DNA from: Archivesica marissinica
Taxonomy: Eukaryota; Mollusca; Bivalvia; Venerida; Vesicomyidae
Direction of reading: 5' to 3'
Length of the DNA stretch: 64,000 nucleotides
Assembly: GCA_014843695.1 (NCBI GenBank)
Contig: CM026397.1
Location: forward strand, 38,389,952 to 38,453,951
Position 1 is the first letter of the stretch; the number at the start of each line of letters is the position of its first letter. A program made the position numbers and the translations under genes. Positions 21,849 through 53,800 of this stretch are shown piece after piece. The notes beneath the pieces are model-generated. The model was not told the DNA's origin, ran no database searches, and was given only the letters and a program-made list of their open reading frames with translations.

Positions 21849-21895
21849 TTCTAACCTGTATCTTGTATGGTTGTAGCAATATTGTATACGGGTAC

Positions 21896-22040: not shown

Positions 22041-22086
22041 CTAAAGAAAAATATATAGAAACCTAAACATCTCTAACTGAAAAGGC

Positions 22087-22709: not shown

Positions 22710-22869
22710 CTGCAATAAATATTAGGTATTTATACATGCCAACCAATCGAGAGCACCTCTCATTCCAAAGGGGGACATTTAACATATTCATTTTTGCTGA
22801 GCGGTTGGCCACGGTACCACAAATGTAACATGATGTCTGTTTTTAACCTTAGTATGTAGTTCTTTTAAC

Positions 22870-23385
22870 ACTCTCTATCTCACTAATTGAGATTTTTAAC
22901 CATTGTCCCTGACAAGCGCCTCCTTGTCATACTCACGTCCGAGTGTTGGGAGAACTATGTAGAAATAGACGTAGACATGTATCTCCTAATGATAAATTAA
23001 GCCTGTTATTAAAGTAAGTCTTCCTTAGTTTATTGTTTTGTTAAAAAAGAATTGTTGCTTACATACTAATGGTGGCGCTGTAGACAATTTCCACAGTTAG
23101 GCGAAAACATGTGACGTAATTCCGGATTACTGAGAATGAGGTACCGCTATTTTGTCAACTTTTCTCAAAAAGTAAACATTCGATTTTCTTCGAGATTTTT
23201 GTGGATAAATGGTAAAATATTGTTTATTTGGTTACATAAAATTGTTTGCAGTGTATGACCATTCTAAACCTATAGGAGTCCGTTATGTACTACATCGTCG
23301 GAAACCAGTCCAGTAACACAGGGATATTACTATGCCAAGATAAACACTGAGCAAGTTTAAAGCATAACATTTCAAATAAAATCAC
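22870..23385. other. Intron 1 of the TBC1D2-like gene, unique sequence
   Basis: I see no repeat array or exon here. This is one of the few unique stretches of the window and lies next to the divergent promoter. Confidence 0.5.
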
Positions 23386-23696
23386 CTATATATGTACAGC
23401 TTGCAATTCTCCTCACCAAACTGAAACCATCTTAGTCTGGTCATTTTCAGATTTCCAAGTCCCCGTGCTCTAAGATGCAACCAACCGCACAGTCTCTCTT
23501 CCGGGTTTGCCTGTATCTGCATCTTCTTTTCCATGCTCTTTTCTGCTGCTGTTTCACCAGCAGTAACATTCTTAGCCTCTGTAACAGGTTCGTCCTTTGA
23601 TTCGGTGTTATCCTGCGAACTGACAATATATGCTTGCGGCTGTAGCAAATCCGATTTATCCGTTTTCTCGTCCTCGTCACCTCCCTCCTCCATCAT
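23386..23696 (-). CDS. TBC1D2-like RabGAP, coding exon 1 (start and first half of PH domain)
   Basis: This is the N-terminal exon of a PH-TBC protein. TBC1D2 (Armus) family members are GTPase-activating proteins for Rab7-type GTPases, and the PH domain contributes to membrane and partner binding. The exon starts with two consecutive ATGs at 23694-23696 and 23691-23693 and ends at donor AG|GTGATT (23386/23385), 103 codons + 2 nt. Residues 1-68 are acidic and low complexity. The PH domain starts at about residue 69 (LCGWLHLR, then RLRWFQF and KLYIYR) and continues through exons 2 and 3 to about residue 163. The family call rests on the PH sequence; the TBC domain is outside the window. The gene is divergent to EIF2B2. 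Confidence 0.75.
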
Positions 23697-23815
23697 TGTT
23701 TACACCGGAAACGACCGAACTTCACAATTTGCAGATTATATGCACCGAATTTCAAGTGGAGTAACTCTCATAACTAATATTTACAGACCATTGCATGAGA
23801 AAAATATTGAAGAAA
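23697..23815. promoter_or_regulatory. Putative bidirectional promoter, TBC1D2-like / EIF2B2
   Basis: Only 119 bp separate the two start codons, which point away from each other, so both 5' UTRs and core promoters must overlap here or lie within the first introns. An ACCGGAAAC sequence (CCGGAA at 23705-23710) matches the ETS-factor core often found in bidirectional housekeeping promoters. There is no clear TATA box in the expected position for either gene. That the promoter is shared is inferred from spacing. Confidence 0.55.
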
Positions 23816-26800: not shown

Positions 26801-29800
26801 ACTTAACAACACCTTTCCTGGGCAGGCTCCAGCGGTTAACCAGTACTTGGGTGCACCAACCTCCGTAAGAAACTGCCAACTTTTTCATATAAATGAGACA
26901 TGGCCTGAGTGGGGCTCGAACCCGTGACCATCAGTGATGATAGGTTACAGTGGTATACAAGTCAGCGACCTTAACCACTCGACCACGGAGGCGGACTGAT
27001 GATAACTTGTTAATTAATATGCCACATGAAGAAAATTCCTTTCTGCTAATTGTCCTAAAAAAGGTCACGCCCCGTTTGTTTAAATGTGAACATTTTCACA
27101 GACAGATATGTAATCCAATGGTTAACACGATGAACTGGGAATCCAGGGATTGCAGATTCGATCCCCTGTCTGACCCTAATAAAATTAACAGTTTCAGAAG
27201 GGACTTTAAACCAAGGTCTTGTGTCGGTGCTTTACACCGTACACGTAAAAGAACCAGAAGAGACTCTCTGTCTGTATCATTGCACTATCCTCCAACAATT
27301 TAAAATGACTCTTCAGGAGGCATCGCTCATATGGGCAACCGGTAGCAACGATAAATAAACGTAAAACACACATCAGATATCTGGGGCTCTTAATTGGCGA
27401 CAAAAGTGTCGCAGACAAAAATTCGGACATATGGAACCCTGATTCTACATCTCACATGTATATGAAAAACTTGCTCCCTGAGCTCAACAAAGGGAGAATT
27501 GAGGCTGGCTCGGAGACGTGGCTTCTTCCAAATTGTCCTCTTCGTCTTCAGACCAGAATGGATGTTGTTTCTTAACTTGGTACAGTTGATGTGACGGTTC
27601 GAATGATCTTGTGTTGCATTGATCATTATAATGTTGAAACAGTTGATGTGACTGTTGGAATGACCTTGTGTTGATCATTATAATGCTGAAACAGTTGATG
27701 TGACTGTTTGAATGACCTTGTGTTGATCATTATAATGCTGAAACAGTTGATGTGACTGTTTGAATGACCTTGTGTTGATCATTATAATGCTGAAACAGTT
27801 GATGTGACTGTTGGAATGACCTTGTGTTGATCATTATAATGTTGAAACAGTTGATGTGACTGTTGGAATGACTTTGTGTTGATCATTATAATGCTGAAAC
27901 AGTTGATGTGACTGTTGGAATGACCTTGTGTTGATCATTATAATGCTGAAACAGTTGATGTGACTGTTTGAATGACCTTGTGTTGATAATTATAATGTAG
28001 AAACAGTTGATGTGACTGTTGGAATGACCTTGTGTTGATCATTATAATGTTGAAACAGTTGATGTGACTGTTGGAATGACTTTGTGTTGATCATTATAAT
28101 GTTGAAACAGTTGATGTGACTGTTGGAATGATCTTGTGTTGCATTGATCATTATAATGCTGAAACAGTTGATGTGACTGTTGGAATGACCATGTGTTGAT
28201 CATTATAATGCTGAAACAGTTGATGTGACTGTTGGAATGACATTGTGTTGATCATTATAATGTTGAAACAGTTGATGTGACTGTTGGAATGACCATGTGT
28301 TGATCATTATAATGTTGAAACAGTTGATGTGACTGTTGGAATGACTTTGTGTTGATCATTATAATGCTGAAACAGTTGATGTGACTGTTGGAATGACCTT
28401 GTGTTGATCATTATAATGCTGAAACAGTTGATGTGACTGTTGGAATGACCTTGTGTTGATCATTATAATGCTGAAACAGTTGATGTGACTGTTGGAATGA
28501 CCTTGTGTTGATCATTATAATTCTGAAACAGTTGATGTGACTGTTGGAATGACCTTGTGTTGATCGTTATAATGCTGAAACAGTTGATGTGACTGTTGGA
28601 ATGACCTTGTGTTGATCATTATAATTCTGAAACAGTTGATGTGACTGTTGGAATGACCTTGTGTTGATCATTATAATGCTGAAACAGTTGATGTGACTGT
28701 TGGAATGACCTTGTGTTGATCATTATAATGCTGAAACAGTTGATGTGACTGTTGGAATGACCTTGTGTTGATCATTATAATGTTGAAACAGTTGATGTGA
28801 CTGTTGGAATGACCATGTGTTGATCATTATAATGCTGAAACAGTTGATGTGACTGTTGGAATGACCATGTGTTGATCATTATAATGCTGAAACAGTTGAT
28901 GTGACTGTTTGAATGACCTTGTGTTGATCATTATAATGCTGAAACAGTTGATATGACTGTTGGAATGACCTTGTGTTGATCATTATAATTCTGAAACAGT
29001 TGATGTGACTGTTGGAATGACCTTGTGTTGATCATTATAATGCTGAAACAGTTGATGTGACTGTTTGAATGACCTTGTGTTGATCATTATAATGCTGAAA
29101 CAGTTGATGTGACTGTTTGAATGACCTTGTGTTGATCATTATAATGCTGAAACAGTTGATGTGACTGTTGGAATGACCTTGTGTTGATCATTATAATGTT
29201 GAAACAGTTGATGTGACTGTTGGAATGACTTTGTGTTGATCATTATAATGCTGAAACAGTTGATGTGACTGTTGGAATGACCTTGTGTTGATCATTATAA
29301 TGCTGAAACAAGAATCTTTTCTATTACAGGACTATACAAGGTGCCTACAGTGTTGCCTACAATACTGTGTCATTGATGGTGAGAATCATATCACAGACAA
29401 AATGGACAAATGCAAAGTAATTATTTAAATACACTATTTTAAATGTTCCCTGTGGATCGAATCCAGTTTCACAGGTCTAAATGTAGAGGTGTTGTTTATA
29501 ATCACGATATCGATGTTTCATCGATTCCTTGCGGTCGATTCCATATCAAATTCAAGTTCTGAATTTTATCGATACATTTGAAGCATTAAGTAAGGCACAC
29601 TGTATGTTATTGCAATTGGTTGTGCATAACCTGAGGACAATAGATCTGATTTTAACCAATTCCCACAGACATGTAGAAGCGTACCTTGATGCCAATACCA
29701 CATTCGTAATAAAGTCCAGAATCTCATGTACTGTTACAGTAAATCCATCACCTCTAAACTGGAATTCCCCCCAAACCGAACAGATTTCTTAATTCCAATT

Positions 29801-32800
29801 TTTCCCCATCTTTGTTCATTGTATGAAAACCTCTGTAAGACAGAACCCATAATTTCCGAATATCAAGCAGATTTAAAAAAAAAAAACATGCATTTTCACC
29901 TGTAAATTACCCAGGGCTGTAAACTGAACAACAACTTTTCTGGATCAAATATGAAACTGACTATTCTTGTAAACAAACAACTTTCAGCTGGGGTTTTTTT
30001 CAGAATATTGTATTGTACACTTAAAATGAATCAGTTCTTTACTAACTGTCAACTATGAACATGTCTCGGCCGTCTTCTAAGCACTGCAGAGTTGAATTGT
30101 TAATTTAGGAGAAATCTACCCCACTATGAAAGCCCATATAAACCGAAGTTTACCTATAGTCCGGTTGCCGTTCGGTTTAGAGGAGTTTCATTGTAGTACC
30201 AGTAATATCACTGGAGGTGAGTTAGATATGCTGACTACTTATCCACTGATTGATAGCTAAATGGCTGTCGTATGTACAGTGTATGGAGATATCGAAATCT
30301 GTGTGTGGGAAATCTGTATGTGGGAAATGGTTAATTCATGTATTTTGTTTTGTTAGGGAATTGATGGACATTGTGAAGATTGAAGGACAGAAAATGATGG
30401 CGGCTCAACCCTCCGAGGCAGCACTTGGTAACATGGTGAGGAGAGTCCTCAAGATCATCAGGGAGGAATATGCCAGGTTAACATTATGTTTTATTACTGT
30501 GTCCCATTAATGCACCAGGTTAACATCATGTTTTATTATGGTATCCCAGTAATACACCAGGTTATACTGTTTTATTACGGTGTCCCAGTAATACACCAGG
30601 TTAACATACTGTTTTACGATGGTGTCCCAGTAATACATCAGCTTAACATACTGTTTTATTATGGTGTCCCAGTAATACACCAGTTTAACATACTGTTTTA
30701 CGATGGTGTCCCAGTAATGCATCAGGTTAACATACTGTTTTATGATGGTGTCCCAGTAATACACCAGGTTAACATACTGTTTTATTACAGTGTCCCAGTA
30801 ATGCACCAGGTTAACATCATATTTTATTACGGTGTCCCAGTAATGCACCAGGTTAACATACTGTTTTTACGGTGTCCCAGTAATGCACCAGGTTAACATA
30901 CTGTTTTATGACGGTGTCCCAGTAATACACCAGGTTAACATAATGTGTTATGACGGTGTCCCAGTAATACACCAGGTTAACATACTGTTTTATGACGGTG
31001 TCCCAGTAATACACCAGGTTAACATACTGTTTTATGACGGTGTCCCAGTAATACACCAGGTTAACATAATGTTTTATGACGGTGTCCCAGTAATACACCA
31101 GGTTAACATACTGTTTTATGACGGTGTCCCAGTAATACATCAGGATACATAATATAGTTAAGCTGTACTTAGTTGATGTTTGCAGGATATGTAGGACATA
31201 TTGTATGTAGAAGAACTTGTATAAATGTAGCATATGATTAATGTAATATTGATCCTAATAGAACCCGTGTACATCAACCAAACATTTGCAGTACTACATT
31301 ATTTGTTTCATCTTATATGTTTAAAATTATGAAATTATAATGGCCAATATCGAGATGTATGCAGGCGGAGATTAGTTTATGCCTAGCAGCGTGTACTAGT
31401 ATTTCGAGAATGTTATGTCTAACGGATTACCGTTAAACATATGTCACCCTGGTGTCTATTGTCGGTGAAGCTACGAAATATAAAGCCACTATTATTAAGC
31501 TAAATGCTTACTGGGACATTTACATAAATGCCTATCTTGCACATAGATTCCTCTGTATTGTATTGCATATTGTTGCAGCGGACTGAAGGGCAAATCAGAA
31601 GAAGGAGATCCACAGGAGTCTTTACATGTAACGTATATTTCACACATGTAATGTATATTTAACATATGTAATGTATATTTCACATATGTAATGTATATTT
31701 CACATATGTAACGTATATTTCACATAATTTTATGTAACGTATATTTCACACATGTAACGTATATTTCACACATGTAACGTATATTTCACACATGTAACGT
31801 ATATTTCACACATGTAGCGTATATTTCACACATGTAACGTATATTTCACACATGTAACATATATTTCACACATGTAGCGTATATTTCACACATGTAACGT
31901 ATATTTCACACATGTAATGTATATTTCGCATTTGTAACGTATATATTTCGCACCTGTAGCATATATAATACATGTAACGTATATTTCACACATTTAACGT
32001 AATTTCACACATGTAGCATAATATTTCGCACTTGTAACGTATATTTCACACATGTAACGTATGCTATGTGAGCCATTCGTTCTAGTGAGCAATGTGATCG
32101 AGGCTGCTTGGGCGTCTGGGTGCATGCATTCCCGGAATGTTTTCAGAGCTTAGATATAATTTCAAAATGAAAGCTTTACATCATTCTGATTGGTGCACAC
32201 ATAGTGAACAGATACTCACCCAAATTATACTAGTATGCCTTGGTCTGCAAATCAACAGTATTGATTTAGGGGTGAGTGTTGTAAGGAATTGTGTCATTGA
32301 AAAACGTGTTTCAAATCAATATCTGAATTATTACACCCCCTTGATCATGGTCTGCAAATGATTTAGGGGTAAAAAACAATGTGGTAGGGAAATGGCATTG
32401 AAAAAAGGGTTTCAAATCAATATCTGAATTATTACACCCCCTTGATCATGGTCTGCAAATGATTTAGGGGTCAAAAACAATGGTAGGGAAATGGCATTGA
32501 AAAAAGGGTTTCAAATCAATATCTGAATTATTACACCCCCTTGATCATGGTCTGCAAATGATTTAGGGGTCAAAAACAATGTGGTAGGGAAATGGCATTG
32601 AAAAAATGGTTTCAAATCAATATCAGAATTATTACATCCCCTTGATCATGGTCGGCAAATGATTTAGGGGTCAAAAACAATGTGGTAGGGAAATGGCATT
32701 GAAAAAAGGGTTTCAAATCAATATCTGAATTATTACACCCCCTTGATCATGGTCTGCAAATGATTTAGGGGTAAAAAACAATGTGGTAGGGAAATGGCAT

Positions 32801-35800
32801 TGAAAAAAGGGTTTCAAATCAATATCTGAATTATTACACCCCCTTGATCATGGTCTGCAAATGATTTAGGGGTCAAAAACAATGGTAGGGAAATGGCATT
32901 GAAAAAAGGGTTTCAAATCAATATCTGAATTATTACACCCCCTTGATCATGGTCTGCAAATGATTTAGGGGTCAAAAACAATGTGGTAGGGAAATGGCAT
33001 TGAAAAAAGGGTTTCAAATCAATATCTGAATTATTACACCCCCTTGATCATGGTCTGCAAATGATTTAGGGGTCAAAAACAATGTGGTAGGGAAATGGCA
33101 TTGAAAAACGTGTTTCAAATCAATATCTGAATTATTACACCCCCTTGATCATGGTCTGCAAATGATTTAGGGGTCAAAAACAATGTGGTAGGGAAATGGC
33201 ATTGAAAAAATGGTTTCAAATCAATATCAGAATTATTACATCCCCTTGATCATGGTCGGCAAATGATTTAGGGGTCAAAAACAATGTGGTAGGGAAATGG
33301 CATTGAAAAAAGGGTTTCAAATCAATATCTGAATTATTACACCCCCTTGATCATGGTCTGCAAATGATTTAGGGGTAAAAAACAATGTGGTAGGGAAATG
33401 GCATTGAAAAAAGGGTTTCAAATCAATATCTGAATTATTACACCCCCTTGATCATGGTCTGCAAATGATTTAGGGGTCAAAAACAATGGTAGGGAAATGG
33501 CATTGAAAAAAGGGTTTCAAATCAATATCTGAATTATTACACCCCCTTGATCATGGTCTGCAAATGATTTAGGGGTCAAAAACAATGTGGTAGGGAAATG
33601 GCATTGAAAAAAGGGTTTCAAATCAATATCTGAATTATTACACCCCCTTGATCATGGTCTGCAAATGATTTAGGGGTCAAAAACAATGTGGTAGGGAAAT
33701 GGCATTGAAAAACGTGTTTCAAATCAATATCTGAATTATTACACCCCCTTGATCATGGTCTGCAAATGATTTAGGGGTCAAAAACAATGTGGTAGGGAAA
33801 TGGCATTGAAAAAATGGTTTCAAATCAATATCAGAATTATTACATCCCCTTGATCATGGTCGGCAAATGATTTAGGGGTCAAAAACAATGTGGTAGGGAA
33901 ATGGCATTGAAAAAAGGGTTTCAAATCAATATCATGTTAAGTAATTAGCTTACGATCTTCATAGTGAGGTGGGTGCATTGGTCGTATAGATTTCGGACAC
34001 AGGAACGTCGGATTCAAAAACCATTTCCAGTAACAGAAAGACAACAAACGTTTTTTTTTTATTACAGTTATACATTAATATTATACATGCATCAAATATA
34101 TACAGAATTTATATCACATGTTTAGCATAAAAATGTATTATCAGTTTGGTATGTATATAAGTATGCATGGATATAAGCTTATCCCAGCTGGAAGAGACAT
34201 CTCTATTGAACAATATCAGATTTGTCGGTTTTTGCTGAGAACTATTCCTATCACTGAGCATACCATATTGTGGACATTGAATTATGACAGTTTTCCGAAA
34301 TATAATTCACACTTTTTTTCCAGAAATTATTAACGGCGGAAGGTGAGGTGGATGATTTCACTCTCCCTGTTAGAGATCTGAAGGCCACTGTGATAGATGT
34401 TATAACTGAACTAAAAACAGAATTAGAAACGAGATAAGCAACTGTGATAGATGTTATAACTGAACTAAAAACAGAATTAGAAACGAGGTAAGCCACTGTG
34501 ATAGATGTTATAACTGAACTAAAAACAGAATTAGAAACGAGATAAGCAACTGTGATAGATGTTATAACTGAACTAAAAACAGAATTAGAAACGAGGTAAG
34601 CCACTGTGATAGATGTTATAACTGAACTAAAAACAGAATTAGAAACGAGATAAGCAACTGTGATAGATGTTATAACTGAACTAAAAACAGAATTAGAAAC
34701 GAGGTAAGCCACTGTGATAGAAGCTATAACTGAACTAAAAACAGTGGAAGTCGTGATAGCGCAGTGGATGTGCGTTCGCTTCAGGTGCGAAAGGTCCGGA
34801 GTTCGAGCCCCACTGGAGCCATTAAGATTGTGCCCTTAGGCAAGGCATTTAAATTCCATGTTGCCTCTCCCTTGTGGCGATGGATTCCATCAGGAATGAG
34901 GTCTCGAGAGTGATTTATATAAGTTGAAATAACTTGTTTCGCAATCGAGCTAAAATAAATTTGTATAAACTAAAAACAGAATTTGAAACGAGGTAAGCCA
35001 CTGTGATAGATGTTATAACTGAACTAAAAACAGAATTAGAAACGAGGTAAGCAACTGTGATAGATGTTATAACTGAACTAAAAACAGAATTAGAAACGAG
35101 GTAAGCCACTGTGATAGATGCTATAACTGAACTAAAACAAACCACTGTGATAGAAACTGTAACTGAAATAAAAACAGAACTAGGAACAACGTAAACCACC
35201 ATGATAGAAAAATTATTGGAGACACGGTAAGCCACTGTGATAGGTCAATATTTTCTTTTCAGTGGGGACAATATAGCAACACAGTCTCTGGAACACATTC
35301 ACTCTAATGAAGTCATCATGACAGCAGGAAAGTCTAAAACAGTGGAGTCATTTCTAAAGGTGCGATGTTTGTGTAGTGTGTTGTATCCACATGTTATGTA
35401 TCGGATGAAAAGGTATAAGTTGTGTGTATAAATGTTTTATTAAACGTGGAGTCAAGAACTAGTGTTTTAGCAACTGCTTCTCAGTGTTGCCAAGTATCGT
35501 CCGTATCATCCTCACAACAACCTCTTCTGTCCAAGTTAGTTCGGTAACTGGGGTAAGGTTTATTCTAGAGGGGAAAAATGGGCAGAGTGTGTCCAAAAAA
35601 GTGGCAGTGTGCGTCAGAAAAGAGCCGCGATGAGGTGCGGGATGGCGTATTTTGGGGTCAGCTCCTAGAAAATGTTGGTAACTAACGGTGATTGATCAAA
35701 GAGGCAGTAAGGCAGTACATATTGGTGAAATGGGGACAAGTTCTAAGATATATAAGTCTGAAGGCTTATATAAAAAATAAATGTAAAACAATTAGCACTT

Positions 35801-38800
35801 GAAGCTCGTGTTTAGACGACCATAATTGATGTCATAAATGACATCACTGACAGCTTGAGTCCGAAAACGTTCACGTTGACAACATTTGCACATGCAGCGG
35901 CTAGATGCAAAGCAGTGAGCAATAAAATGTGTTATTCCACTACTTTCAACCACATTTTATTTCAGTGCTAAATTTCTATATTTCATTATAAAGCATAAAG
36001 TAAATCGTTTTATTTTGTTGTTGTTGGATAGTGCAAGATGCGGAACATGATCTAATTCCATAAGCATGTATGGTTCATTTACATGCCCTGTGGATCGTGC
36101 AAGATGCGGAACATGATCTAATTCCATAAGCATGTATGGTTCATTTACATGCCCTGTGGATCGTGCAAGATGCGGAACATGATCTAATTCCATAAGCATG
36201 TATGGTTCATTTACATGCCCTGTGGATCGTGCAAGATGCGGAACATGATCTAATTCCATAAGCATGTATGGTTCATTTACATGCCCTGTGGATCGTGCAA
36301 GATGCGGAACATGATCTAATTCCATAAGCATGTATGGTTCATTTACATGCCCTGTGGATCGTGCAAGATGCGGAACATGATCTAATTCCATAAGCATGTA
36401 TGGTTCATTTACATGCCCTGTGGATCGTGCAAGATGCGGAACATGATCTAATTCCATAAGCATGTATGGTTCATTTACATGCCCTGTGGATCGTGCAAGA
36501 TGCGGAACATGATCTAATTCCATAAGCATGTATGGTTCATTTACATGCCCTGTGGATCGTGCAAGATGCGGAACATGATCTAATTCCATAAGCATGTATG
36601 GTTCATTTACATGCCCTGTGGATCGTGCAAGATGCGGAACATGATCTAATTCCATAAGCATGTATGGTTCATTTACATGCCCTGTGGATCGTGCAAGATG
36701 CGGAACATGATCTAATTCCATAAGCATGTATGGTTCATTTACATGCCCTGTGGATCGTGCAAGATGCGGAACATGATCTAATTCCATAAGCATGTATGGT
36801 TCATTTACATGCCCTGTGGATCATGCAAGATGCGGAACGCGATCTAATTCCATAAGCATGTATGGTTCATTTACATTCCCTGTGGATCGTGCAAGATGCG
36901 GAACGCGATCTAATTCCATAAGCATGTATGGTTCATTTACATTCCCTGTGGATCGTGCAAGATGCGGAACGCGATCTAATTCCATAAGCATGTATGGTTC
37001 TTTTACATGCCCTGTGTATGTGACCGATTCCCGAGACCTCTGTTTATAGTCAGCCCATCACTGTTGATACTGTTAGGGTCAGGCGGGGATCGAACCTGCT
37101 ATCCCTGGATTTGGAGTCCAATGTGTTAACAACTTGATCACTGGCCCGTCTACATCGAATGAATACAGCACTCTGTGAAATATATTTGTAATAACTGTAA
37201 TACCAACATGATAGAAAATGAATTCCATTTCCTTTTAGTCTGTCCGAAATTTAAAGATTTAAGAAGAAAATATTTAAAACGTTATTTTTGTTCTTGGCCT
37301 AACATGCATAAATTCTTATCTCTAAATACTTGTCAGTCACAAACACAGATCTTAAACCTTGCTAAGTATATTTATTATGCAAATCACAAAAGAAATCAAT
37401 AGATAATTACCATCATTCCTTACATTGCTATTATACTGTTATATTTCATGCTTCTCTGTAAACTGTGTAATATATGTGTGATGCTATAAGCATCTGCTGA
37501 TGTTTAATGCAATAAATATTGTATTGTATTGTATTTGTAGGATGCAGCGAGAAAAAGAAAGTTTCAAGTGATTGTTGTAGAATGTGCTCCATTTTATCAT
37601 GTAAGTATATTCACAGACAGGCAGGGAAAGTAACTGTAAATCCTACACCAGTAAAATACAGTTAAGTAATAAAAGTTATCTCCCCTGCTCAACATTTAAT
37701 TGTAAGCAAACACATTATGGAATAAGAGACAACAGTTATATATGATAATAATTGTGATTGGATGCTATTTTTAGCTCAACTGAGAGGCTCATGGGAGCCA
37801 TTGGAATCGCTCTGTCATGCTTGTTGTTGTTGTTATTATCTGAGGTAGCTACCTGCGTGTGCTCACTTGTTGTGTTCACTCTAGCTTTCTCAGTCTTTAA
37901 CCCCATTCACCTGTCTCAACGACATTACCATTACCACATGTATGGACACAGCTGTAGTCAAACAAACAGAAACATACAACCCTATCCAAACAAACAGAAA
38001 CATACAACCCTATCCAACAAACAGAAACATACAACCCTATCCAACAAACAGAAACATACAACCCTGTCCAAACATACAGAAACATACAACCTTATCCAAA
38101 CATACAGAAACATACAACCCTATCCAAACATACAGAAACATACAACCCTATCCAACAAACAGAAACATACAACCCTGTCCAAACATACAGAAACATACAA
38201 CCTTATCCAAACATACAGAAACATACAACCCTATCCAAACATACAGAAACATACAACCCTATCCAACAAACAGAAACATACAACCCTGTCCAAACATACA
38301 GAAACATACAACCCTATCCAAACATACAGAAACATACAACCCTATCCAAACAAACAGAAACATACAACCCTATCCAACAAACAGAAACATACAACCCTAT
38401 CCAAACAAACAGAAACATACAACCCTATCCAAACAAACAGAAACATACAACCCTATCCAAACATACAGAAACATACAACCCTATCCAACAAACAGAAACA
38501 TACAACCCTGTCCAAACAAACAGAAACATACAACCCTATCCAAACATACAGAAACATACAACCCTATCCAAACATACAGAAACATACAACCCTATCCAAA
38601 CAAACAGAAACATACAACCCTATCCAAACAAACAAACAGAAACATACAACCCTATCCAAACATACAGAAACATACATCCCTATCCAAACAAACAGAAACA
38701 TACAACCCTATCCAAACAAACAAACAGAAACATACAACCCTGTCCAACAAACAGAAACATACAACCCTATCCAAACAAACAGAAACATACAACCCTATCC

Positions 38801-41800
38801 AAACAAACAGAAACATACAACCCTATCCAAACAAACAGAAACATACAACCCTATCCAAACAAACAGAAACATACAACCCTATCCAACNNNNNNNNNNNNN
38901 NNNNNNNNNNNNNNNNNNNNNNNNNNNNNNNNNNNNNNNNNNNNNNNNNNNNNNNNNNNNNNNNNNNNNNNNNNNNNNNNNNNNNNNNNNNNNNNNNNNN
39001 NNNNNNNNNNNNNNNNNNNNNNNNNNNNNNNNNNNNNNNNNNNNNNNNNNNNNNNNNNNNNNNNNNNNNNNNNNNNNNNNNNNNNNNNNNNNNNNNNNNN
39101 NNNNNNNNNNNNNNNNNNNNNNNNNNNNNNNNNNNNNNNNNNNNNNNNNNNNNNNNNNNNNNNNNNNNNNNNNNNNNNNNNNNNNNNNNNNNNNNNNNNN
39201 NNNNNNNNNNNNNNNNNNNNNNNNNNNNNNNNNNNNNNNNNNNNNNNNNNNNNNNNNNNNNNNNNNNNNNNNNNNNNNNNNNNNNNNNNNNNNNNNNNNN
39301 NNNNNNNNNNNNNNNNNNNNNNNNNNNNNNNNNNNNNNNNNNNNNNNNNNNNNNNNNNNNNNNNNNNNNNNNNNNNNNNNNNNNNNNNNNNNNNNNNNNN
39401 NNNNNNNNNNNNNNNNNNNNNNNNNNNNNNNNNNNNNNNNNNNNNNNNNNNNNNNNNNNNNNNNNNNNNNNNNNNNNNNNNNNNNNNNNNNNNNNNNNNN
39501 NNNNNNNNNNNNNNNNNNNNNNNNNNNNNNNNNNNNNNNNNNNNNNNNNNNNNNNNNNNNNNNNNNNNNNNNNNNNNNNNNNNNNNNNNNNNNNNNNNNN
39601 NNNNNNNNNNNNNNNNNNNNNNNNNNNNNNNNNNNNNNNNNNNNNNNNNNNNNNNNNNNNNNNNNNNNNNNNNNNNNNNNNNNNNNNNNNNNNNNNNNNN
39701 NNNNNNNNNNNNNNNNNNNNNNNNNNNNNNNNNNNNNNNNNNNNNNNNNNNNNNNNNNNNNNNNNNNNNNNNNNNNNNNNNNNNNNNNNNNNNNNNNNNN
39801 NNNNNNNNNNNNNNNNNNNNNNNNNNNNNNNNNNNNNNNNNNNNNNNNNNNNNNNNNNNNNNNNNNNNNNNNNNNNNNNNNNNNNNNAACAGAAACATAC
39901 AACCCTATCCAAACAAACAGAAACATACAACCCTATCCAACAAACAGAAACATACAACCCTATCCAACAAACAGAAACATACAACCCTATCCAAACAAAC
40001 AGAAACATACAACCCTATCCAAACAAACAGAAACATACAACCCTATCCAAACATACAGAAACATACAACCCTATCCAAACATACAGAAACACACAACCCT
40101 ATCCAAACAAACAGAAACATACAACCCTGTCCAAACAAACAAACAGAAACATACAACCCTATCCAAACAATCAAACAGAAACATACAACCCTAGACAAAC
40201 AAACAGAAACATACAACCCTATACAAACAAACAGAAACATACAACCCTATCCAAACAAACAGAAACATACAACCCTATCCAACAAACAGAAACATACAAC
40301 CCTATCCAAACAAACAGAAACATACAACCCTATCCAAACAAACAGAAACATACAACCCTATCAAACAAACAAACAGAAACATACAACCCTATCCCAAACA
40401 AACAGAAACATACAACCCTATCCAAACAAACAAACAGAAACATACAACCCTATCCAACAAACAGAAACATACAACCCTATCCAAACCAACAAACAGAAAC
40501 ATACAACCCTATCCAAACAAACAAACAGAAACATACAACCCTATCCAACAAACAGAAACATACATCCCTGTCCAACAAACAGAAACATACAACCCTATCC
40601 AAACAAACAGAAACATACAACCCTGTCCAAACAAACAAACAGAAACATACAACCCTATCCAAACAAACAAACAGAAACATACAACCCTAGACAAACATAC
40701 TGAAACATACAACCCTATCCAACAAACAGAAACATACAACCCTATCCAAACAAACAAACAGAAACATACAACCCTATCCAAACAAACAGAAACATACAAC
40801 CCTATCCAACAAACAGAAACATACAACCCTATCCAACAAACAGAAACATACAACCCTATCCAAACAAACAGAAACATACAACCCTATCCAAACAAACAGA
40901 AACATACAACCCTATCCAAACAAACAGAAACATACAACCCTATCCAAACATACTGAAACATACAACCCTATCCAAACATACAGAAACACACAACCCTATC
41001 CAAACAAACAGAAACATACAACCCTGTCCAAACAAACAAACAGAAACATACAACCCTAGACAAACAAACGGAAACATACAACCCTAGACAAACAAACAGA
41101 AACATACAACCCTATCCAAACAAACAGAAACATACAACCCTATCCAACAAACAGAAACATACAACCCTATCCAAACAAACAGAAACATACAACCCTATCC
41201 AAACAAACAGAAACATACAACCCTATCCAAACAAACAGAAACATACAACCCTATCAAACAAACAAACAGAAACATACAACCCTATCCCAAACAAACAGAA
41301 ACATACAACCCTATCCCAAACAAACAGAAACATACAACCCTATCCCAAACAAACAGAAACATACAACCCTATCCAAACAAACAAACAGAAACATACAACC
41401 CTATACAAACAAACAGAAACATACAACCCTATCCAAACATACTGAAACATACAACCCTATCCAAACATACAGAAACATACAACCCTATCCAAACAAACAG
41501 AAACATACAACCCTGTCCAAACAAACAAACAGAAACATACAACCCTATCCAAACAATCAAACAGAAACATACAACCCTAGACAAACAAACGGAAACATAC
41601 AACCCTAGACAAACAAACAGAAACATACAACCCTATCCAAACAAACAGAAACATACAACCCTATCCAACAAACAGAAACATACAACCCTATCCAAACATA
41701 CAGAAACATACAACCCTATCCAACAAACAGAAACATACAACCCTGTCCAAACATACAGAAACATACAACCCTATCCAACAAACAGAAACATACAACCCTA

Positions 41801-44800
41801 TCCAAACAAACAGAAACATACAACCCTATCCAACAAACAGAAACATACAACCCTATCCAAACAAACAGAAACATACAACCCTATCCAAACAAACAAACAG
41901 AAACATACAACCCTATCCAAACAAACAGAAACATACAACCCTATCCAAACATACAGAAACATACAACCCTATCCAAACAAACAAACAGAAACATACAACC
42001 CTATCCAAACAAACAGAAACATACAACCCTATCCAAACAAACAGAAACATACAACCCTATCCAAACAAACAGAAACATACAACCCTATCCAAACATACAG
42101 AAACATACAACCCTATCCAAACATACAGAAACATACAACCCTATCCAACAAACAGAAACATACAACCCTATCCAACAAACAGAAACATACAACCCTATCC
42201 AAACAAACAGAAACATACAACCCTATCCAACAAACGGAAACATACAACCCTATCCAACAAACGGAAACATACAACCCTATCCAAACAAACAAACAGAAAC
42301 ATACAACCCTATACAAACAAACAAACGGAAACATACAACCCTATACAAACAAACAAACAGAAACATACAACCCTGTCCAACAAACAGAAACATACATCCC
42401 TATCCAACAAACAGAAACATACAACCCTATCCAACAAACAGAAACATACATCCCTATCCAACAAACAGAAACATACAACCCTATCCAACAAACAGAAACA
42501 TACATCCCTGTCCAAACAAACAGAAACATACAACCCTATCCAAACAAACAGAAACATACAACCCTGTCCAACAAACAGAAACATACAACCCTATCCAAAC
42601 ATACAGAAACATACAACCCTATCCAAACAAACAGAAACATACAACCCTATACAAACATACAGAAACATACAACCCTGTCCAAACAAACAGAAACACACAA
42701 CCCTATCCAAACAAACAGAAACATACAACCCTATTCAAACAAACAAACAGAAACATACAACCCTATCCAACAAACAGAAACACACAACCCTATCCAAACA
42801 AACAGAAACATACAACCCTATTCAAACAAACAAACGGAAACATACAACCCTATCCAACAAACAGAAACATACAACCCTATCCAACAAACAGAAACATACA
42901 ACCCTATCCAAACATACAGAAACATACAACCCTATTCAAACAAACAGAAACATACAACCCTATCCAACAAACGGAAACATACAACCCTATACAAACAAAC
43001 AAACAGAAACATACAACCCTGTCCAACAAACAGAAACATACAACCCTATCCAAACATACAGAAACATACAACCCTATCCAAACATACAGAAACATACAAC
43101 CCTATCCAAACATACAGAAACATACAACCCTATCCAAACAAACAGAAACATACAACCCTATCACAAACAAACAGAAACATACAACCCTATCCAAACATAC
43201 AGAAACATACAACCCTATCCAAACAAACAGAAACAGACAACCCTATCCAACAAACAGAAACATACAACCCTATCCAACAAACAGAAACATACAACCCTAT
43301 CCAAACAAACAGAAACATACAACCCTATCCAAACATACAGAAACATACAACCCTATCCAAACAAACAAACAGAAACATACAACCCTATCCAACAAACAGA
43401 AACATACAACCCTATCCAACAAACAGAAACATACAACCCTATCCAACAAACAGAAACATACAACCCTATCCAACAAACAGAAACATACAACCCTATCCAA
43501 CAAACAGAAACATACAACCCTATCCAACAAACAGAAACATACAACCCTATCCAAACATACAGAAACATACAACCCTATCCAACAAACAGAAACATACAAC
43601 CCTATCCAACAAACAGAAACATACAACCCTATCCAAACAAACAGAACATACAACCCTATCAAACAAACAGAAACATACAACCCTATCCAACAAACAGAAA
43701 CATACAACCCTATCCAACAAACAGAAACATACAACCCTATCCAACAAACAGAAACATACAACCCTATCCAAACATACAGAAACATACAACCCTATCCAAA
43801 CAAACAGAAACATACAACCCTATCCAACAAACAGAAACATACAACCCTATCCAAACATACAGAAACATACAACCCTATCCAACAAACAGAAACATACAAC
43901 CCTATCCAACAAACAGAAACATACAACCCTATCCAACAAACAGAAACATACAACCATATCCAACAAACAGAAACATACAACCCTATCCTACAAACAGACA
44001 CATACAACCTTATCCAACAAACAGAAACATACAACCATATCCAACAAACGGAAACATACAACCCTATACAACAAACAGAAACATACAACCCTATCCAACA
44101 AACAGAAACATACAACCCTATCCAACAAACAGAAACATACATCCCTATCCAACAAACAGAAACATACAACCATATCCAACAAACGGAAACATACAACCCT
44201 ATACAAACAAACAAACAAACAGAAACATACAACCCTATCCAACAAACAGAAACATACAACCCTATCCAACAAACAGAAACATACAACCATATCCAACAAA
44301 CAGAAACATACAACCCTATCCAACAAACAGAAACATACAACCCTATCCAACAAACAGAAACATACAACCCTATCCAAACATACAGAAACATACAACCCTA
44401 TCCAACAAACAGAAACATACATCCCTATCCAACAAACAGAAACATACAACCATATCCAACAAACGGAAACATACAACCCTATACAACAAACAGAAACATA
44501 CAACCCTATCCAACAAACAGAAACATACAACCATATCCAACAAACAGAAACATACAACCTTATCCAACAAACAGAAACATACAACCATATCCAACAAACG
44601 GAAACATACAACCCTGTCCAACATACAGAAACATACAACCCTATCCAACAAACGGAAACATACAACCCTGTCCAACAAACAGAAACATACAACCCTATCC
44701 AACAAACAGAAACATACAACCCTATCCAACAAACAGAAACATACAACCCTATCCAACAAACAGAAACATACAACCCTATCCTACAAACAGAAACATACAA

Positions 44801-47800
44801 CCCTATCCAAACATACTGAAACATACAACCCTATCCAACAAACAGACACATACAACCCTATCCAAACATACTGAAACATACAACCCTATCCAAACAAACA
44901 AACAGAAACATACATCCCTATCCAAACAAACAGAAACATACAACCCTATCCAACAAACAGAAACATACAACCCTATCCAAACAAACAGAAACATACAACC
45001 CTATCCAACAAACAGAAACATACAACCCTATCCAACAAACAAACAAACAGAAACATACAACCCTATCCAAACAAACAAACAGAAACATACAACCCTATCC
45101 AAACAAACAAACAAACAGAAACATACAACCCTATCCAAACAAACAAACAGAAACATACAACCCTATCCAAACAAACAAACAGAAACATACAACCCTATCC
45201 AAACAAACAAACAGAAACATACAACCCTATCCAACAAACAGAAACATACAACCCTATCCAAACAAACAAACAGAAACATACAACCCTATCCAACAAACAG
45301 AAACATACAACCCTATCCAACAAACAGAAACATACAACCCTATCCAACAAACAGACACATACATCCCTATCCAACAAATGGAAACATACAACCCTATCCA
45401 ACAAACGGAAACATACAACCCTATCCAACAAACAGAAACATACAACCCTATCCAAACAAACAGAAACATACAACCCTATCCAAACAAACAGAAACATACA
45501 ACCCTATCCAACAAACAGACACATACAACCCTATCCAACAAACGGAAACATACAACCCTATCCAACAAACAGAAACATACAACCCTATCCAACAAACAGA
45601 AACATACAACCCTATCCAAACATACAGAAACATACAACCCTATCCAAACAAACAGAAACATACAACCCTATCCAACAAACAAACAGAAACATACAACCCT
45701 ATCCAACAAACAGAAACATACAACCCTATCCAACAAACAGAAACATACAACCCTATCCAAACAAACAGAAACATACAACCCTATCCAAACATACAGAAAC
45801 ATACAACCCTATCCAAACAAACAAACAGAAACATACAACCCTATCCAACAAACAGAAACATACAACCCTATCCAACAAACAGAAACATACAACCCTATCC
45901 AAACATACAGAAACATACAACCCTATCCAAACATACAGAAACATACAACCCTATCCAAACAAACAAACAGAAACATACAACCCTATCCAACAAACAGAAA
46001 CATACAACCCTATCCAACAAACAGAAACATACAACCCTATCCAAACATACAGAAACATACAACCCTATCCAAACATACAGAAACATACAACCCTATCCAA
46101 ACATACAGAAACATACAACCCTATCCAAACATACAGAAACATACAACCCTATCCAAACAAACAGAAACATACAACCCTATCCAAACAAACAGAAACATAC
46201 AACCCTATCCAACAAACAGAAACATACAACCCTGTCCAAACATACAGAAACATACAACCCTATCCAAACAAACAGAAACATACAACCCTATCCAAACAAA
46301 CAGAAACATACAACCTTGTCCAAACAAACAGAAACATACAACCCTATACAACAAACAGAAACATACAACCCTATCCAAACAAACAAACAAACAGAAACAT
46401 ACAACCCTATCCAAACATACAGAAACATACAACCCTATACAAACATACAGAAACATACAACCCTATCCAAACAAACAGAAACATACAACCCTATCCAACA
46501 AACAGAAACATACAACCCTATCCAACAAACAGAAACATACAACCCTATCCAAGCTGCTATAGAGACGACGGTGATCAACGACTCTGCTGTGTTTATAATG
46601 TACTGTGTTTGTAGGGTCAGGCGTTGGCAGTAAGCCTGGCTAAGGCTGGTATAGAGACAACAGTGATCAATGACTGCTATGTTTATAATGTACTGTGTTT
46701 GTAGGGTCAGGAGTTGGCAGTAAGCCTGGCTACGTCTGGTATAGAGACAACGGTGATCAATGACTGCTATGTTTATAATGTACTATGTTTGTAGGGTCAG
46801 GAGTTGGCAGTAAGCCTGGCTACATCTGGTATAGAGACAACGGTGATCAATGACTGCTATGTTTATAATGTACTGTGTTTGTAGGGTCAGGAGTTGGCAG
46901 TAAGCCTGGCTACGTCTGGTATAGAGACAACGGTGATCAATGACTGCTATGTTTATAATGTACTATGTTTGTAGGGTCAGGAGTTGGCAGTAAGCCTGGC
47001 TACGTCTGGTATAGAGACGACGGTGACCAACGACTCTGCTGTGTTTATAATGTACTATGTTTGTAGGGTCAGGCATTGGCAGTAAGCCTGGCTAAGGCTG
47101 GTATAGAGACGACGGTGATCAACGACTCTGCTGTGTTTGCCATTATGTCGAGAGTTAACAAGGTGATCATAGGAACACATACTGTCATGGCTAATGGAGG
47201 GTAAGTAAACTGTCTACAGTCAAACCTGTCTTAAACAGCCAGCATAGGAACACATACTGTCATTGCTAATGGAGGGTAAGTAAACTGTCTACAGTCAAAC
47301 CTGTCTTAAACAGCCAGCATAGGAACACATACTGTCATGGCTAATGGAGGGTAAGCAAACTGTCTACAGTCAAACCTGTCTTAAACAGCCAGCATAGGAA
47401 CACATACTGTCATGGCTAATGGAGGGTAAGCAAACTGTCTACAGTCAAACCTGTCTTAAACAGCCAGCATAGGAACACATACTGTCATGGCTAATGGAGG
47501 GTAAGTAAACTGTCTACAGTCAAACCTGTCTTAAACAGCCAGCATAGGAACACATACTGTCATGGCTAATGGAGGGTAAGTAAACTGTCTACAGTCAAAC
47601 CTGTCTTAAACAGCCAGCATAGGAACACATACTGTCATGGCTAATGGAGGGTAAGCAAACTGTCTACAGTCAAACCTGTCTTAAACAGCCAGCATAGGAA
47701 CACATACTGTCATGGCTAATGGAGGGTAAGCAAACTGTCTACAGTCAAACCTGTCTTAAACAGCCAGCATAGGAACACATACTGTCATGGCTAATGGAGG

Positions 47801-50800
47801 GTAAGTAAACTGTCTACAGTCAAACCTGTCTTAAACAGCCAGCATAGGAACACATACTGTCATGGCTAATGGAGGGTAAGTAAACTGTCTACAGTCAAAC
47901 CTGTCTTAAACAGCCAGCATAGGAACACATACTGTCATGGCTAATGGAGGGTAAGTAAACTGTCTACAGTCAAACCTGTCTTAAACAGCCAGCATAGGAA
48001 CACATACTGTCCTGGCTAATGGAGGGTAAGCAAACTGTCTACAGTCAAACCTGTCTTAAACAGCCAGCCGAGGGAATCACAGAAAGTGGCTGCTTATCAC
48101 AGGTGGCTGCTTAATAGAGGTCAAATGTATAACAAATCAACACATTGGGAATCTGGCAACTGGCTGCTTAATACAGGTTGGCTGCTTAATGGAGGTTACA
48201 CTAACACATGTTTGACTGTATATGTGGGACCTCCGTGGTGTTGGAACCTCTGTGGTGTAATGGAGGTTACACTAACACAGGTTTGACTGTATATGTGGAG
48301 TCTCCGTGGTGTTGGAACCTCTGTGGTGTAATGGAGGTTACACTAACACAGGTTTGACTGTATATGTGGGGTCTCCGTGGTGTTGGAACCTCTGTGGTGT
48401 AATGGAGGTTACACTAACACAGGTTTGACTGTATATGTGGGACCTCCATTGTGTTGGAACCTCTGTGATGTAATGGAGGTTACACTAACACATGTTTGAC
48501 TGTATATGTGGGGTCTCCGTGGTGTTGGAACTTCTGTGATGTAATGGAGGTTACACTAACACAGGTTTGACTATATATGTGGGGTCTCCGTGGTGTTGGA
48601 ACCCCTGTGATGTAATGGAGGTTACACTAACACAGGTTTGACTGTATATGTGGGGTCTCCGTTGTGTTGGAACCTCTGTGATGTAATGGAGGTTACATTA
48701 ACACATGTTTGACTGTATATGTGGGGTCTCCGTGGTGTTGGAACCCCTGTGATGTAATGGAGGTTACACTAACACATGTTTGACTGTATATGTGGGACCT
48801 CCGTTGTGTTGGAACCTCTGATGTAATGGAGGTTACAGTAACACAGGTTTGACTGTATATGTGGGGTCTCCGTGGTGTTGGAACCCCTGTGATGTAATGG
48901 AGGCTACACTAACACAGGTTTGACTGTATATGTGGGGTCTCCGTGGTGTTGGAACCCCTGTGATGTAATGGAGGTTACACTAACACAGGTTGTATATGTT
49001 TTAACAACTTATATTAATCACTCTCGTTGGCGCGGATGAAAGCGTATATGTGGTAATTCATGTGGGAGGAAACCAGAGTACCCGGAGAACACCAACCTGT
49101 CCAATCTGGCAGCCACCGTACCATCTCACATACTTCCCGGTCCGAGGATCGAACCCGGGTTGCATTGGTGAGAAACGAGCGGACTAACTGAACATTATTA
49201 TTTCTCCAGAGTGGTGTAATATAGTTTAGGTTTTATTTAAAAAAAAAAATATTTTTCAGGTTGAAGGCTGTCAGTGGGAGTCATGCAATAGCGCTGTCAG
49301 CAAAACATTACTCTGTACCAGTAGGTAGTCAGCAATACATTACTCTGTACCAGTAGGTAGTCAGCAATACATTACTCTGTACCAGTAGGTAGTCAGCAAA
49401 ACATTACTCTGTACCAGTAGGTAGTCAGCAATACATTACTCTGTACCAGTAGGTAGTCAGCAAAACATTACTCTGTACCAGTAGGTAGTCAGCAAAATAT
49501 TACTCTGTACCAGTAGGTAGTCAGCAAAATATTACTCTGTACCAGTAGGTAGTCAGCAATACATTACTCTGTACCAGTAGGTAGTCAGCAAAACATTACT
49601 CTGTACCAGTAGGTAGTCAACTCCCACTCAAATACTTCATGTTTCTTTTCATTTTAGTTATTAGGGCGGACAAGTGGCTACGGTCATTTGTTGCCTTCAA
49701 ATCTCTCCCCACCCCCTCTCACTACTGTGGGTTCGAATCCCGCTGGGTGTGTATCTATCTGTCCACTTGTTTGGATACAACACTGTGTACTAATATGTCA
49801 TACAAAGGGGGACAACTCATTCCAATGTGGGACATTTAAAATATCTATATAGAAAACGGTCCGTCGTCGATGGGAACCGTTTGTGTTTTTGCAAAAACAT
49901 TGTTCATTTTAAAGAAATGTTCACCACATAGCCCCATTGAATGAATATAAAGCTGGATGCTCTGTAGGGATACTGCAGGTGTATGATATACAAGATGGAT
50001 GCTCTGTAGAGATACTGCAGGTGTATGATATACAAGATGGATGCTCTGTAGGGATAATGAAGGTGTATGATATACAAGATGGATGCTCTGTAGAGATACT
50101 GCAGGTGTATGATATACAAGATGGATGCTCTGTAGGGATACTGCAGGTGTATGTATGGTATACAAGATGGATGCTCTGTAGAGATACTGCAGGTGTATGA
50201 TATACAAGATGGATGCTCTGTAGAGATACTGCAGGTGTATGGTATACAAGATGGATGCTCTGTAGGGATACTGCAGGTGTATGTATGGTATACAAGATGG
50301 ATGCTCTGTAGAGATACTGCAGGTGTATGATATACAAGATGGATGCTCTGTAGAGATACTGCAGGTGTATGATATACAAGATGGATGCTCTGTAGAGATA
50401 CTGCAGGTGTATGTATGATATACAAGATGGATGCTCTGTAGAGATACTGCAGGTGTATGTATGATATACAAGATGGATGCTCTGTAGAGATACTGCAGGT
50501 GTATGATATACAAGATGGATGCTCTGTAGAGATACTGCAGGTGTATGATATACAAGATGGATGTTCTGTAGAGATACTGCAGGTGTATGATATACAAGAT
50601 GGATGCTCTGTAGAGATACTGCAGGTGTATGATATACAAGATGGATGCTCTGTAGAGATACTGCAGGTGTATGGTATACAAGATGGATGCTCTGTAGAGA
50701 TACTGCAGGTGTATGTATGATATACAAGATGGATGCTCTGTAGAGATGCTGCAGGTGTATGGTATACAAGATGGATCCTCTGTAGAGATACTGCAGGTGT

Positions 50801-53800
50801 ATGTATGATATACAAGATGGATGCTCTGTAGAGATACTGCAGGTGTATGGTATACAAGATGGATGCTCCGTAGAGATACTGCAGGTGTATGGTATACAAG
50901 ATGGATGCTCTGTAGAGATACTGCAGGTGTATGGTATACAAGATGGATGCTCTGTAGAGATACTGCAGGTGTATGGTATACAAGATGGATCCTCTGTAGA
51001 GATACTGCAGGTGTATGATATACAAGATGGATGCTCTGTAGGGATACTGCAGGTGTATGTATGATATACAAGATGGATGCTCTGTAGAGATACTGCAGGT
51101 GTATGGTATACAAGATGGATGCTCTGTAGAGATACTGCAGGTGTATGTATGATATACAAGATGGATGCTCTGTAGAGATACTGCAGGTGTATGATATACA
51201 AGATGGATGCTCTGTAGGGATACTGCAGGTGTATTGTATACAAGATGGATGCTCTGTAGAGATTAGCAGGTGTATGATATACAAGATGGATGCTCTGTAG
51301 AGATACTGCAGGTGTATGGTATACAAGATGGATGCTCTGTAGAGATACTGCAGGTGTATGATATACAAGATGGATGCTCTGTAGAGATACTGCATGTGTA
51401 TGATATACAAGATGGATGCTCTGTAGAGATACTGCAGGTGTATGATATACAAGATGGATGCTCTGTAGAGATACTGCAGGTGTATGGTATACAAGATGGA
51501 TGCTCTGTAGAGATACTGCAGGTGTATGATATACAAGATGGATGCTCTGTAGAGATACTGCAGGTGTATGGTATACAAGATGGATGCTCTGTAGGGATAC
51601 TGCAGGTGTATGTATGATATACAAGATGGATGCTCTGTAGAGATACTGCAGGTGTATGATATACAAGATGGATGCTCTGTAGAGATACTGCAGGTGTATG
51701 ATATACAAGATGGATGCTCTGTAGGGATACTGCAGGTGTATGTATGATATACAAGATGGATGCTCTGTAGAGATACTGCAGGTGTATGGTATACAAGATG
51801 GATGCTCTGTAGAGATACTGCAGGTGTATGGTATACAAGATGGATGCTCTGTAGAGATACTGCAGGTGTATGTATGATATACAAGATGGTTGCTCTGTAG
51901 GGATACTGCAGGTGTATGTATGATATACAAGATGGATGCTCTGTAGAGATACTGCAGGTGTATGGTATACAAGATGGATGCTCTGTAGAGATACTGCAGG
52001 TGTATGTATGATATACAAGATGGATGCTCTGTAGATATACTGCAGGTATATGATATACAAGATGGATGCTCTGTAGGGATACTGCAGGTGTATGATATAC
52101 AAGATGGATGCTCTGTAGAGATTAGCAGGTGTATGATATACAAGATGGATGCTCTGTAGAGGTACTGCAGGTGTATGGTATACAAGATGGATGCTCTGTA
52201 GGGATACTGCAGGTGTATGATATACAAGATGGGTGCTCTGTAGAGATACTGCAGGTGTATGATATACAAGATGGATGCTCTGTAGAGATACTGCAGGTGT
52301 ATGTATGATATACAAGATGGATGCTCTGTAGAGATACTGCAGGTGTAGGATATACAAGATGGATGCTCTGTAGAGATACTGCAGGTGTATGATATACAAG
52401 ATGGATGCTCTGTAGAGATACTGCAGGTGTATGTATGATATACAAGATGGATGCTCTGTAGAGATACTGCAGGTGTATGATATACAAGATGGATGCTCTG
52501 TAGAGATACTGCAGGTGTATGATATACAAGATGGATGCTCTGTAGAGATACTGCAGGTGTATGTATGATATACAAGATGGATGCTCTGTAGAGATACTGC
52601 AGGTGTATGATATACAAGATGGATGCTCTGTAGAGATACTGCAGGTGTATGTATGGTATACAAGATGGATGCTCTGTAGAGATACTGCAGGTGTATGATA
52701 TACAAGATGGATGCTCTGTAGAGATACTGCAGGTGTATGGTATACAAGATGGATGCTCTGTAGAGATGCTGCAGGTGTATGGTATACAAGATGGATGCTC
52801 TGTAGAGATACTGCAGGTGTATGGTATACAAGATGGATGCTCTGTAGAGATACTGCAGGTGTATGGTATACAAGATGGATGCTCTGTAGGATACTGCAGG
52901 TGTATGATATACAAGATGGATGCTCTGTAGAGATACTGCAGGTGTATGGTATACAAGATGGATGCTCTGTAGAGATACTGCAGGTGTATGTATGATATAC
53001 AAGATGGATGCTCTGTAGAGATACTGCAGGTGTATGATATACAAGATGGATGCTCTGTAGAGATACTGCAGGTGTATGATATACAAGATGGATGCTCTGT
53101 AGAGATACTGCAGGTGTATGGTATACAAGATGGATGCTCTGTAGAGATACTGCAGGTGTATGATATACAAGATGGATGCTCTGTAGAGATACTGCATGTG
53201 TATGATATACAAGATGGATGCTCTGTAGAGATACTGCAGGTGTATGTATGATATACAAGATGGATGCTCTGTAGAGATACTGCAGGTGTATGATATACAA
53301 GATGGATGCTCTGTAGGGATACTGCAGGTGTATGATATACAAGATGGATGCTCTGTAGAGATACTGCAGGTGTATGATATACAAGATGGCTGCTCTGTAG
53401 AGATACTGCAGGTGTATGATATACAAGATGGATGCTCTGTAGAGATACTGCAGGTGTATGATATACAAGATGGATGCTCTTTAGAGATACTGCAGGTGTA
53501 TGGTATACAAGATGGATGCCTCTGTAGGGATACTGCAGGTGTATGTATGATATACAAGATGGATGCTCTGTAGAGATACTGCAGGTGTATGATATACAAG
53601 ATGGATGCTCTGTAGAGATACTGCAGGTGTATGATATACAAGATGGATGCTCTGTAGAGATACTGCAGGTGTATGTATGATATACAAGATGGATGCTCTG
53701 TAGAGATACTGCAGGTGTATGGTATACAAGATGGATGCTCTGTAGAGATACTGCAGGTGTATGATATACAAGATGGATGCTCTGTAGAGATACTGCAGGT

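Follow-up and report, generated by a model that had tools for sequence, protein, structure and literature searches.

The splice junctions of one clam gene raise a question: why do so many of them lie within tandem arrays? The gene is EIF2B2 (eIF2B subunit beta) of the bivalve Archivesica marissinica. It has 12 exons and extends over 36.9 kb from start codon to stop codon, at positions 23816–60665 on the plus strand of a 64,000-nucleotide stretch of contig CM026397.1. This stretch is hereafter called the window, and coordinates are those of the window unless a locus or contig is named. An initial annotation, made from the letters alone, noticed six arrays at exon–intron borders of this gene. 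It proposed that a process linked to transcription or splicing seeds duplications at splice sites, or that such duplications are tolerated because each copy supplies a working site. Our analysis favours a different account. The arrays are probably mirage-type minisatellites, that is, tandem duplications that span exon–intron borders by happenstance and are then filtered by splicing, in a minisatellite-rich genome. Junction-spanning arrays are real and recurrent in this genome, and EIF2B2 is an extreme case.

Six arrays hold splice junctions of EIF2B2

With all 12 exons rebuilt, the joined coding sequence (CDS) of EIF2B2 comprises 354 open codons and a stop codon. The 299 residues encoded by exons 3–12 match eIF2B-beta in the PDB (E 1.3e-125), and from exon 3 onward the joins are consistent with 11 related proteins, six of them from named bivalves. 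Exon 2 (29330–29416) was located through similarity to the related protein P0001. The protein scores 93% against P0001 and 89–90% against that of Mya arenaria, and its nearest named relatives are from bivalves. The assembly totals 1.54 Gb in 2808 contigs, and the window is part of contig C12. None of the eight PF01008 matches in this genome indicates a second EIF2B2 copy.

Arrays in the window were called with Tandem Repeats Finder (TRF), which confirms the arrays and unit lengths given in the initial annotation. Six of them, all on the plus strand, hold a splice junction, a donor in five cases (exons 3, 4, 5, 8, and 9) and the exon 8 acceptor in one. The 42-bp array (30473–31151, ~16 copies) starts with the final 4 nt of exon 3 (30357–30476) and its donor, CCAG-GTTAAC (the hyphen marks the border). 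The 20-bp array (31624–32062, ~22 copies) likewise starts with the final 4 nt of exon 4 (31579–31627) and its donor, ACAT-GTAACG. The 54-bp array (34387–35137) consists of two blocks, 34387–34744 and 34968–35137. Its unit joins the final 47 nt of exon 5 (34324–34433) to 7 nt of intron, and decayed copies extend as far as exon 6. The 90-bp array (46554–47127, six copies) has a unit made of the end of intron 7, with the acceptor TTTGTAG, and the start of exon 8; the true exon 8 (47067–47200) is its last copy. The 75-bp array (47168–48068, 12 copies) combines the final 33 nt of exon 8 and the donor GTAAGY with the left end of an element resembling a miniature inverted-repeat transposable element (MITE). 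In the 32-bp array (49296–49619, ten copies), the unit is the final 25 nt of exon 9 (49260–49320) followed by GTAGGTA.

The donor units of exons 3, 4, 5, 8, and 9 therefore take in 4, 4, 47, 33, and 25 nt of exon and 38, 16, 7, 42, and 7 nt of intron, respectively. Since the exon overlap at exons 3 and 4 is just 4 nt, the border itself may be where these two arrays begin. TRF and the rebuilt exons agree that the five donor arrays start at or hold the preceding donor and that the array before exon 8 holds its acceptor and exon start, as the initial annotation described. Its reading of the units (42, 20, 54, 75, 32, and 90 bp) as unrelated also holds for the TRF consensus units, which are mutually dissimilar by eye and do not form one dispersed satellite family.

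Inner copies resemble decoys

The six arrays hold 73 candidate splice sites, found by motif. The reading frame stays intact with the outermost candidate of each array alone (6 of 73), and each of the remaining 67 leads to a premature stop. Therefore, judged by reading frame, the inner copies look like decoys rather than spares, and the claim that each copy supplies a working site is not supported. The broader idea that the duplications are tolerated fares better: tolerance by splicing is plausible, but not through spare sites.

GT is retained in all donor copies at exons 8 and 9, in 21 of 22 at exon 4, and in three of six at exon 5. Across copies, however, variability in the splice window exceeds that in the remainder of the unit in three of the five donor arrays (exons 4, 5, and 8). 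In the other two (exons 3 and 9) it is lower, but 31% and 66% of equal-size windows, respectively, are as low. Selection for a working splice motif in every copy was considered and rejected, as variability across the five donor arrays gives no general sign of it. At exon 5, the first array copy has GAG-ATAAGC as its donor (34433–34440). In the inner copies of the first block GTAAGC and ATAAGC alternate, and their use would bring in an in-frame TAA. Because the PF01008 matches show no second EIF2B2 copy, the AT reading stems from the assembly or from an allele, unless the donor itself is unusual.

Exon ends and array turnover

Exon 5 and seven intron copies of its end read VIDV. Other intron copies read VIEA (34711), VIDA (35108), and VIET (35144), and the copy at 35234 is decayed. 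At the two changed positions, the relatives have E in ten of 11 and A in 11 of 11, in accordance with the VIEA copy. Derived changes are thus common to exon 5 and the array, and the older state is kept in the intron. Either new copies were repeatedly cut from a changing exon or the exon was overwritten by array copies; on the best reading, the coding end of exon 5 takes part in array turnover.

In the array at the start of exon 8, the exon copy is 86–95% similar to the others, which are 93% similar among themselves, and the copies at 46615 and 46975 resemble, by eye, chimeras of exon-like and array-like types. In the arrays at the ends of exons 5, 8, and 9, the exon copy is as similar as any other copy. 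Homogenisation within arrays is therefore seen, and the boundary copy is not generally left out of it.

The idea that protein change is faster in codons covered by arrays was tried and dropped. With 11 relatives and 80% agreement, four of 50 array-covered codons differ versus two of 203 other codons (P 0.015), but the result depends on the cut-off (P 0.16, 0.05, and 0.24 at 100, 90, and 60% agreement) and is not significant with 49 relatives (P 0.12–0.49).

Chance placement within EIF2B2

For the chance test within EIF2B2, each array was collapsed to one unit, rows with fewer than ~3 copies were dropped, and the two exon 5 blocks were merged, which gave 16 arrays. Random placement barred units wholly within exons and, in the filtered version, positions that destroy a splice signal. 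Six junction-spanning arrays are seen versus 1.34 expected with the splice filter (P 0.001) and 1.7 without it (P 0.004). Donors account for five, versus 0.8–0.9 expected. When ancestral introns are mimicked by shrinking the introns to a half, a third, and a quarter, P rises to 0.03, 0.14, and 0.32, respectively. In addition, EIF2B2 was picked for its pattern, so these post hoc P values overstate the case.

Junction arrays elsewhere in the genome

The share of sequence in TRF arrays is 68% for the window, 37% for eight other loci, and 29% for exon-centred loci elsewhere. The junction arrays therefore belong to a general habit of this genome.

An independent sample from the same genome was drawn from two conserved families, PF01008 and PF00118. 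It contains 52 exons, 48 donors, 46 acceptors, and 111 arrays. Junctions were called from the ends of hidden Markov model matches and a simple splice score, and some may be misplaced. Two of the PF01008 matches belong to EIF2B2 itself and were excluded; the other six were used. The 57 PF00118 matches gave 30 loci and then 20 further stretches holding 21 more matches; six went unused (three duplicates by equal score, one retrocopy part, and two inside loci already taken). Among the first 36 loci, five were excluded: L021 and L039, which are probably retrocopies, and L026, L031, and L045, which are duplicates. Locus L043 was kept; it is without a called junction and contributes one array to the 111.

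Six arrays of the sample span donors versus 2.54 expected (P 0.041), and one spans an acceptor versus 1.56 expected. For either junction, the count is seven versus 4.10 over 94 called junctions (P 0.11). The first batch alone gives four donors versus 1.23 (P 0.034) and no acceptor versus 1.06, and the second batch alone gives two donors versus 1.30 (P 0.38) and one acceptor versus 0.51. The donor-spanning arrays are in L002, which we take to be an EIF2B4-like gene, and in the chaperonin-family loci L023, L041, L046, L047, and L054; the acceptor-spanning array is in L048, also of the chaperonin family. The arrays of L046, L048, and L054 take in just 2–4 nt of exon. In the chaperonin exon of L023, three of the four intron copies read carry one base that the exon lacks, which would break the frame. 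The ratio of donors to acceptors is 6:1 in the sample and 5:1 in EIF2B2. A donor bias is suggested, though unproven.

Array edges that fall just outside a junction, at most 25 nt away, number three versus 1.33 expected at acceptors in the 52 sampled exons. At donors they number one versus 1.60 expected and are not in excess.

MRI1 (L009, named from homologues) is a complete, compact gene of five exons and ~8 kb. The intron between its exons 3 and 4 holds a donor-spanning array (L009 5543–6065) and a second array whose end coincides with the exon 4 acceptor (L009 6343–8133), so two of its five larger arrays are at junctions, one spanning and one flush. Exon 3 of MRI1 is outside the counted sample. 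No junction-spanning array is present in L004, L005, or L008, three exons of one gene that is presumably EIF2B1-like.

Some loci are of interest for other reasons. The pairs L025/L026, L030/L031, and L044/L045 (C11:21.75 and 21.81 Mb) look like an inverted duplication of a gene of the chaperonin family. On C8, exon matches with equal scores are repeated (10271974/10282029 and 10278406/10291982). L039 (C10:20574012–20575619) is a single open frame of 695 codons with a chaperonin-family match, possibly an intronless or retrocopied gene.

Origin of the junction arrays

The reading that we prefer would operate as follows. Tandem duplications probably arise between short direct repeats, by replication slippage or microhomology repair. 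They would form and expand widely outside exons, and some would fall across a border. A duplicated donor would be tolerated because the first, exon-proximal donor can still yield normal mRNA. For a duplicated acceptor, the last copy could yield normal mRNA, but more intron sequence would have to stay intact, which may be why acceptor arrays are rarer. The array would then turn over by unequal exchange or conversion, sometimes including the exon end. Splicing would pick the outermost site, and selection would shape the array edges.

Short repeats can be read by eye at the outer breakpoints of two arrays: GTCAGC in exon 9 and GTCAAC just past the 32-bp array, and CAGG on both sides of the 42-bp array, first at the exon 3 border and then past the array. 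Short direct repeats with slippage or microhomology repair are enough to account for the arrays, and a splice-linked process is not needed. Several observations weigh against this reading. Breakpoint repeats were read for only those two arrays; the rest gave no clear repeat or were unreadable. The outermost exon 5 site, the sole frame-keeper of nine, is AT rather than GT, which a rule that the first donor is used fails to explain. Six spanning arrays in EIF2B2 exceed the 1.3–1.7 of the uniform model, and a model of uniform placement plus filter may be incomplete. A mild donor excess is also present outside EIF2B2.

That excess bears on the idea that donors are hotspots, at which transcription or splicing would seed duplication through R-loops, nicks behind U1-bound donors, or AG-GT microhomology. 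Both EIF2B2 and the sample have more donor-spanning arrays than expected, the sample acceptors are without excess, and four of 12 donor units, those of EIF2B2 exons 5 and 9, MRI1 exon 3, and L023, reach ~5–8 nt into the intron and end just beyond the donor motif. However, a selection filter likewise predicts more donors than acceptors and a pile-up past the donor motif. The sample excess fades in the second batch and for either junction, and array edges do not gather just past donors. We therefore consider seeding at donors unlikely, although the donor counts lend it something; for the splice-linked seeding proposed in the initial annotation, the sample offers a weak excess at donors alone. 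The fuller claim that 5′ splice sites are transcription- or splicing-linked duplication hotspots, with exon ends drawn into concerted evolution and arrays rewriting the protein sequence at borders, is likewise unlikely. Chance together with the choice of an extreme gene is a possible account, if still a minority one in our judgement: short ancestral introns would often put early arrays on junctions. The P values of 0.14 and 0.32 at a third and a quarter of the collapsed intron length fit this account, as does compact MRI1. On the other hand, the arrays at the ends of exons 5, 8, and 9 look young, with 96–99% matches between copies, so they may have arisen in introns near the present size.

It is very improbable that the benefit of having several splice sites, for buffering or regulated splicing, keeps the arrays in place. 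Most donor copies do retain GT, and in a human interferon-induced transcript, reportedly 6-16/IFI6, a minisatellite is said to give several splice donors. But 67 of the 73 sites bring a premature stop, the splice windows are more variable or not unusually low, and three of the four L023 intron copies read carry the extra base. An assembly artefact is hardly credible. The 28-bp array of intron 7 does contain exactly 1000 N (38888–39887), a scaffold gap, and the first exon 5 donor is AT; but scattered differences separate the copies, each array has its own unit, and the same anatomy recurs on other contigs.

Other arrays, mobile elements, and the neighbouring gene

Ten of the 16 larger EIF2B2 arrays lie off any junction. 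Two others on the plus strand abut an acceptor without spanning it: the 52-bp array of intron 1 (27582–29310) ends 19 nt short of the exon 2 acceptor, and the 42/43-bp array of intron 9 (49945–56193) ends 21 nt short of the acceptor of exon 10 (56215–56274).

The MITE-like element of intron 8 (47216–48219) has inverted ends, CAGTCAAACCTGT, and TA flanks. It sits 15 nt beyond the exon 8 donor, and its two inverted ends are in the 75-bp array and the neighbouring 71-bp array, one each. Arrays thus also form on transposon ends. A related end is found at 16623. An insertion resembling a tRNA-derived short interspersed nuclear element (SINE), recognised by eye at 34745–34967, divides the exon 5 array, and a further SINE-like piece at 57584–57878 is itself in tandem.

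The divergent, head-to-head neighbour of EIF2B2 (4966–23699, minus strand) has a PH-like exon set and is presumably TBC1D2-like. No large junction-spanning array is seen in it, but with ~0.4 spanning arrays expected from rough exon ends this null is uninformative.

Comparison with known systems

The initial annotation knew of no established class with this behaviour, but such a class has been described. In amphioxus, globin genes carry minisatellite-like duplications of intron–exon boundaries, termed mirages, as does Adh3 according to earlier work cited there; regular splicing seemed undisturbed, units showed concerted evolution, and haplotypes of one gene differed in copy number (PMC3087553). 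A second paper adds PGBD5 and troponin C to the amphioxus mirage genes (PMC3902484). The EIF2B2 arrays resemble mirages in that units span a border, donors (five) and an acceptor (one) are hit, and copies hold the 73 candidate splice sites. We conclude that they are a dense set of mirage minisatellites, a known but rarely reported structure, in a phylum that is new as far as we searched. The literature searched, which mostly did not cover subscription journals, yielded no account from outside cephalochordates that uses the name mirage.

Mirage minisatellites are hereby extended to a mollusc, where seven of 94 sampled junctions suggest that they are common. In each array the real splice site is ringed by decoys. 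Every array is a natural experiment on the choice of the spliceosome among 6–22 similar sites and on whether changes pass from array to exon. Gene annotation in array-rich genomes can misplace exon ends.

Other systems resemble the clam arrays in part. In a human interferon-induced transcript, the subject of a paper cited in PMC2572611, a minisatellite is said to provide multiple splice donor sites. Donors are repeated as in the clam, but the human copies are said to serve, whereas the inner clam donors would lead to premature stops. Minisatellite repeats at human exon–intron boundaries in segmental duplications alter gene structure (PMC2812944). They are discussed as forming new introns in recent paralogues, whereas the CDS of the clam gene is ordinary and complete. 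When introns are gained through tandem genomic duplication of AGGT segments, splice-like motifs are likewise duplicated in tandem. Such gain should leave homologous intron ends, but the intron ends that flank the clam arrays are dissimilar by eye, so the clam arrays expand existing introns and do not create introns.

The closest likeness remains that to amphioxus. There, mirages of Adh3, BflGb6, BflGb9, troponin C, and PGBD5 are tandem duplications of 5′ or 3′ boundaries, like the clam arrays, with units of ~10–160 bp, concerted evolution within a cluster, and AG/GT signals in many copies. By contrast, the clam arrays are in a bivalve, six in one gene and seven spanning ones in a 52-exon sample, and are known from one assembled sequence. 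Normal splicing of the amphioxus genes was suggested by reverse transcription PCR; in the clam, the counterpart is a CDS predicted to stay intact with the outermost sites alone.

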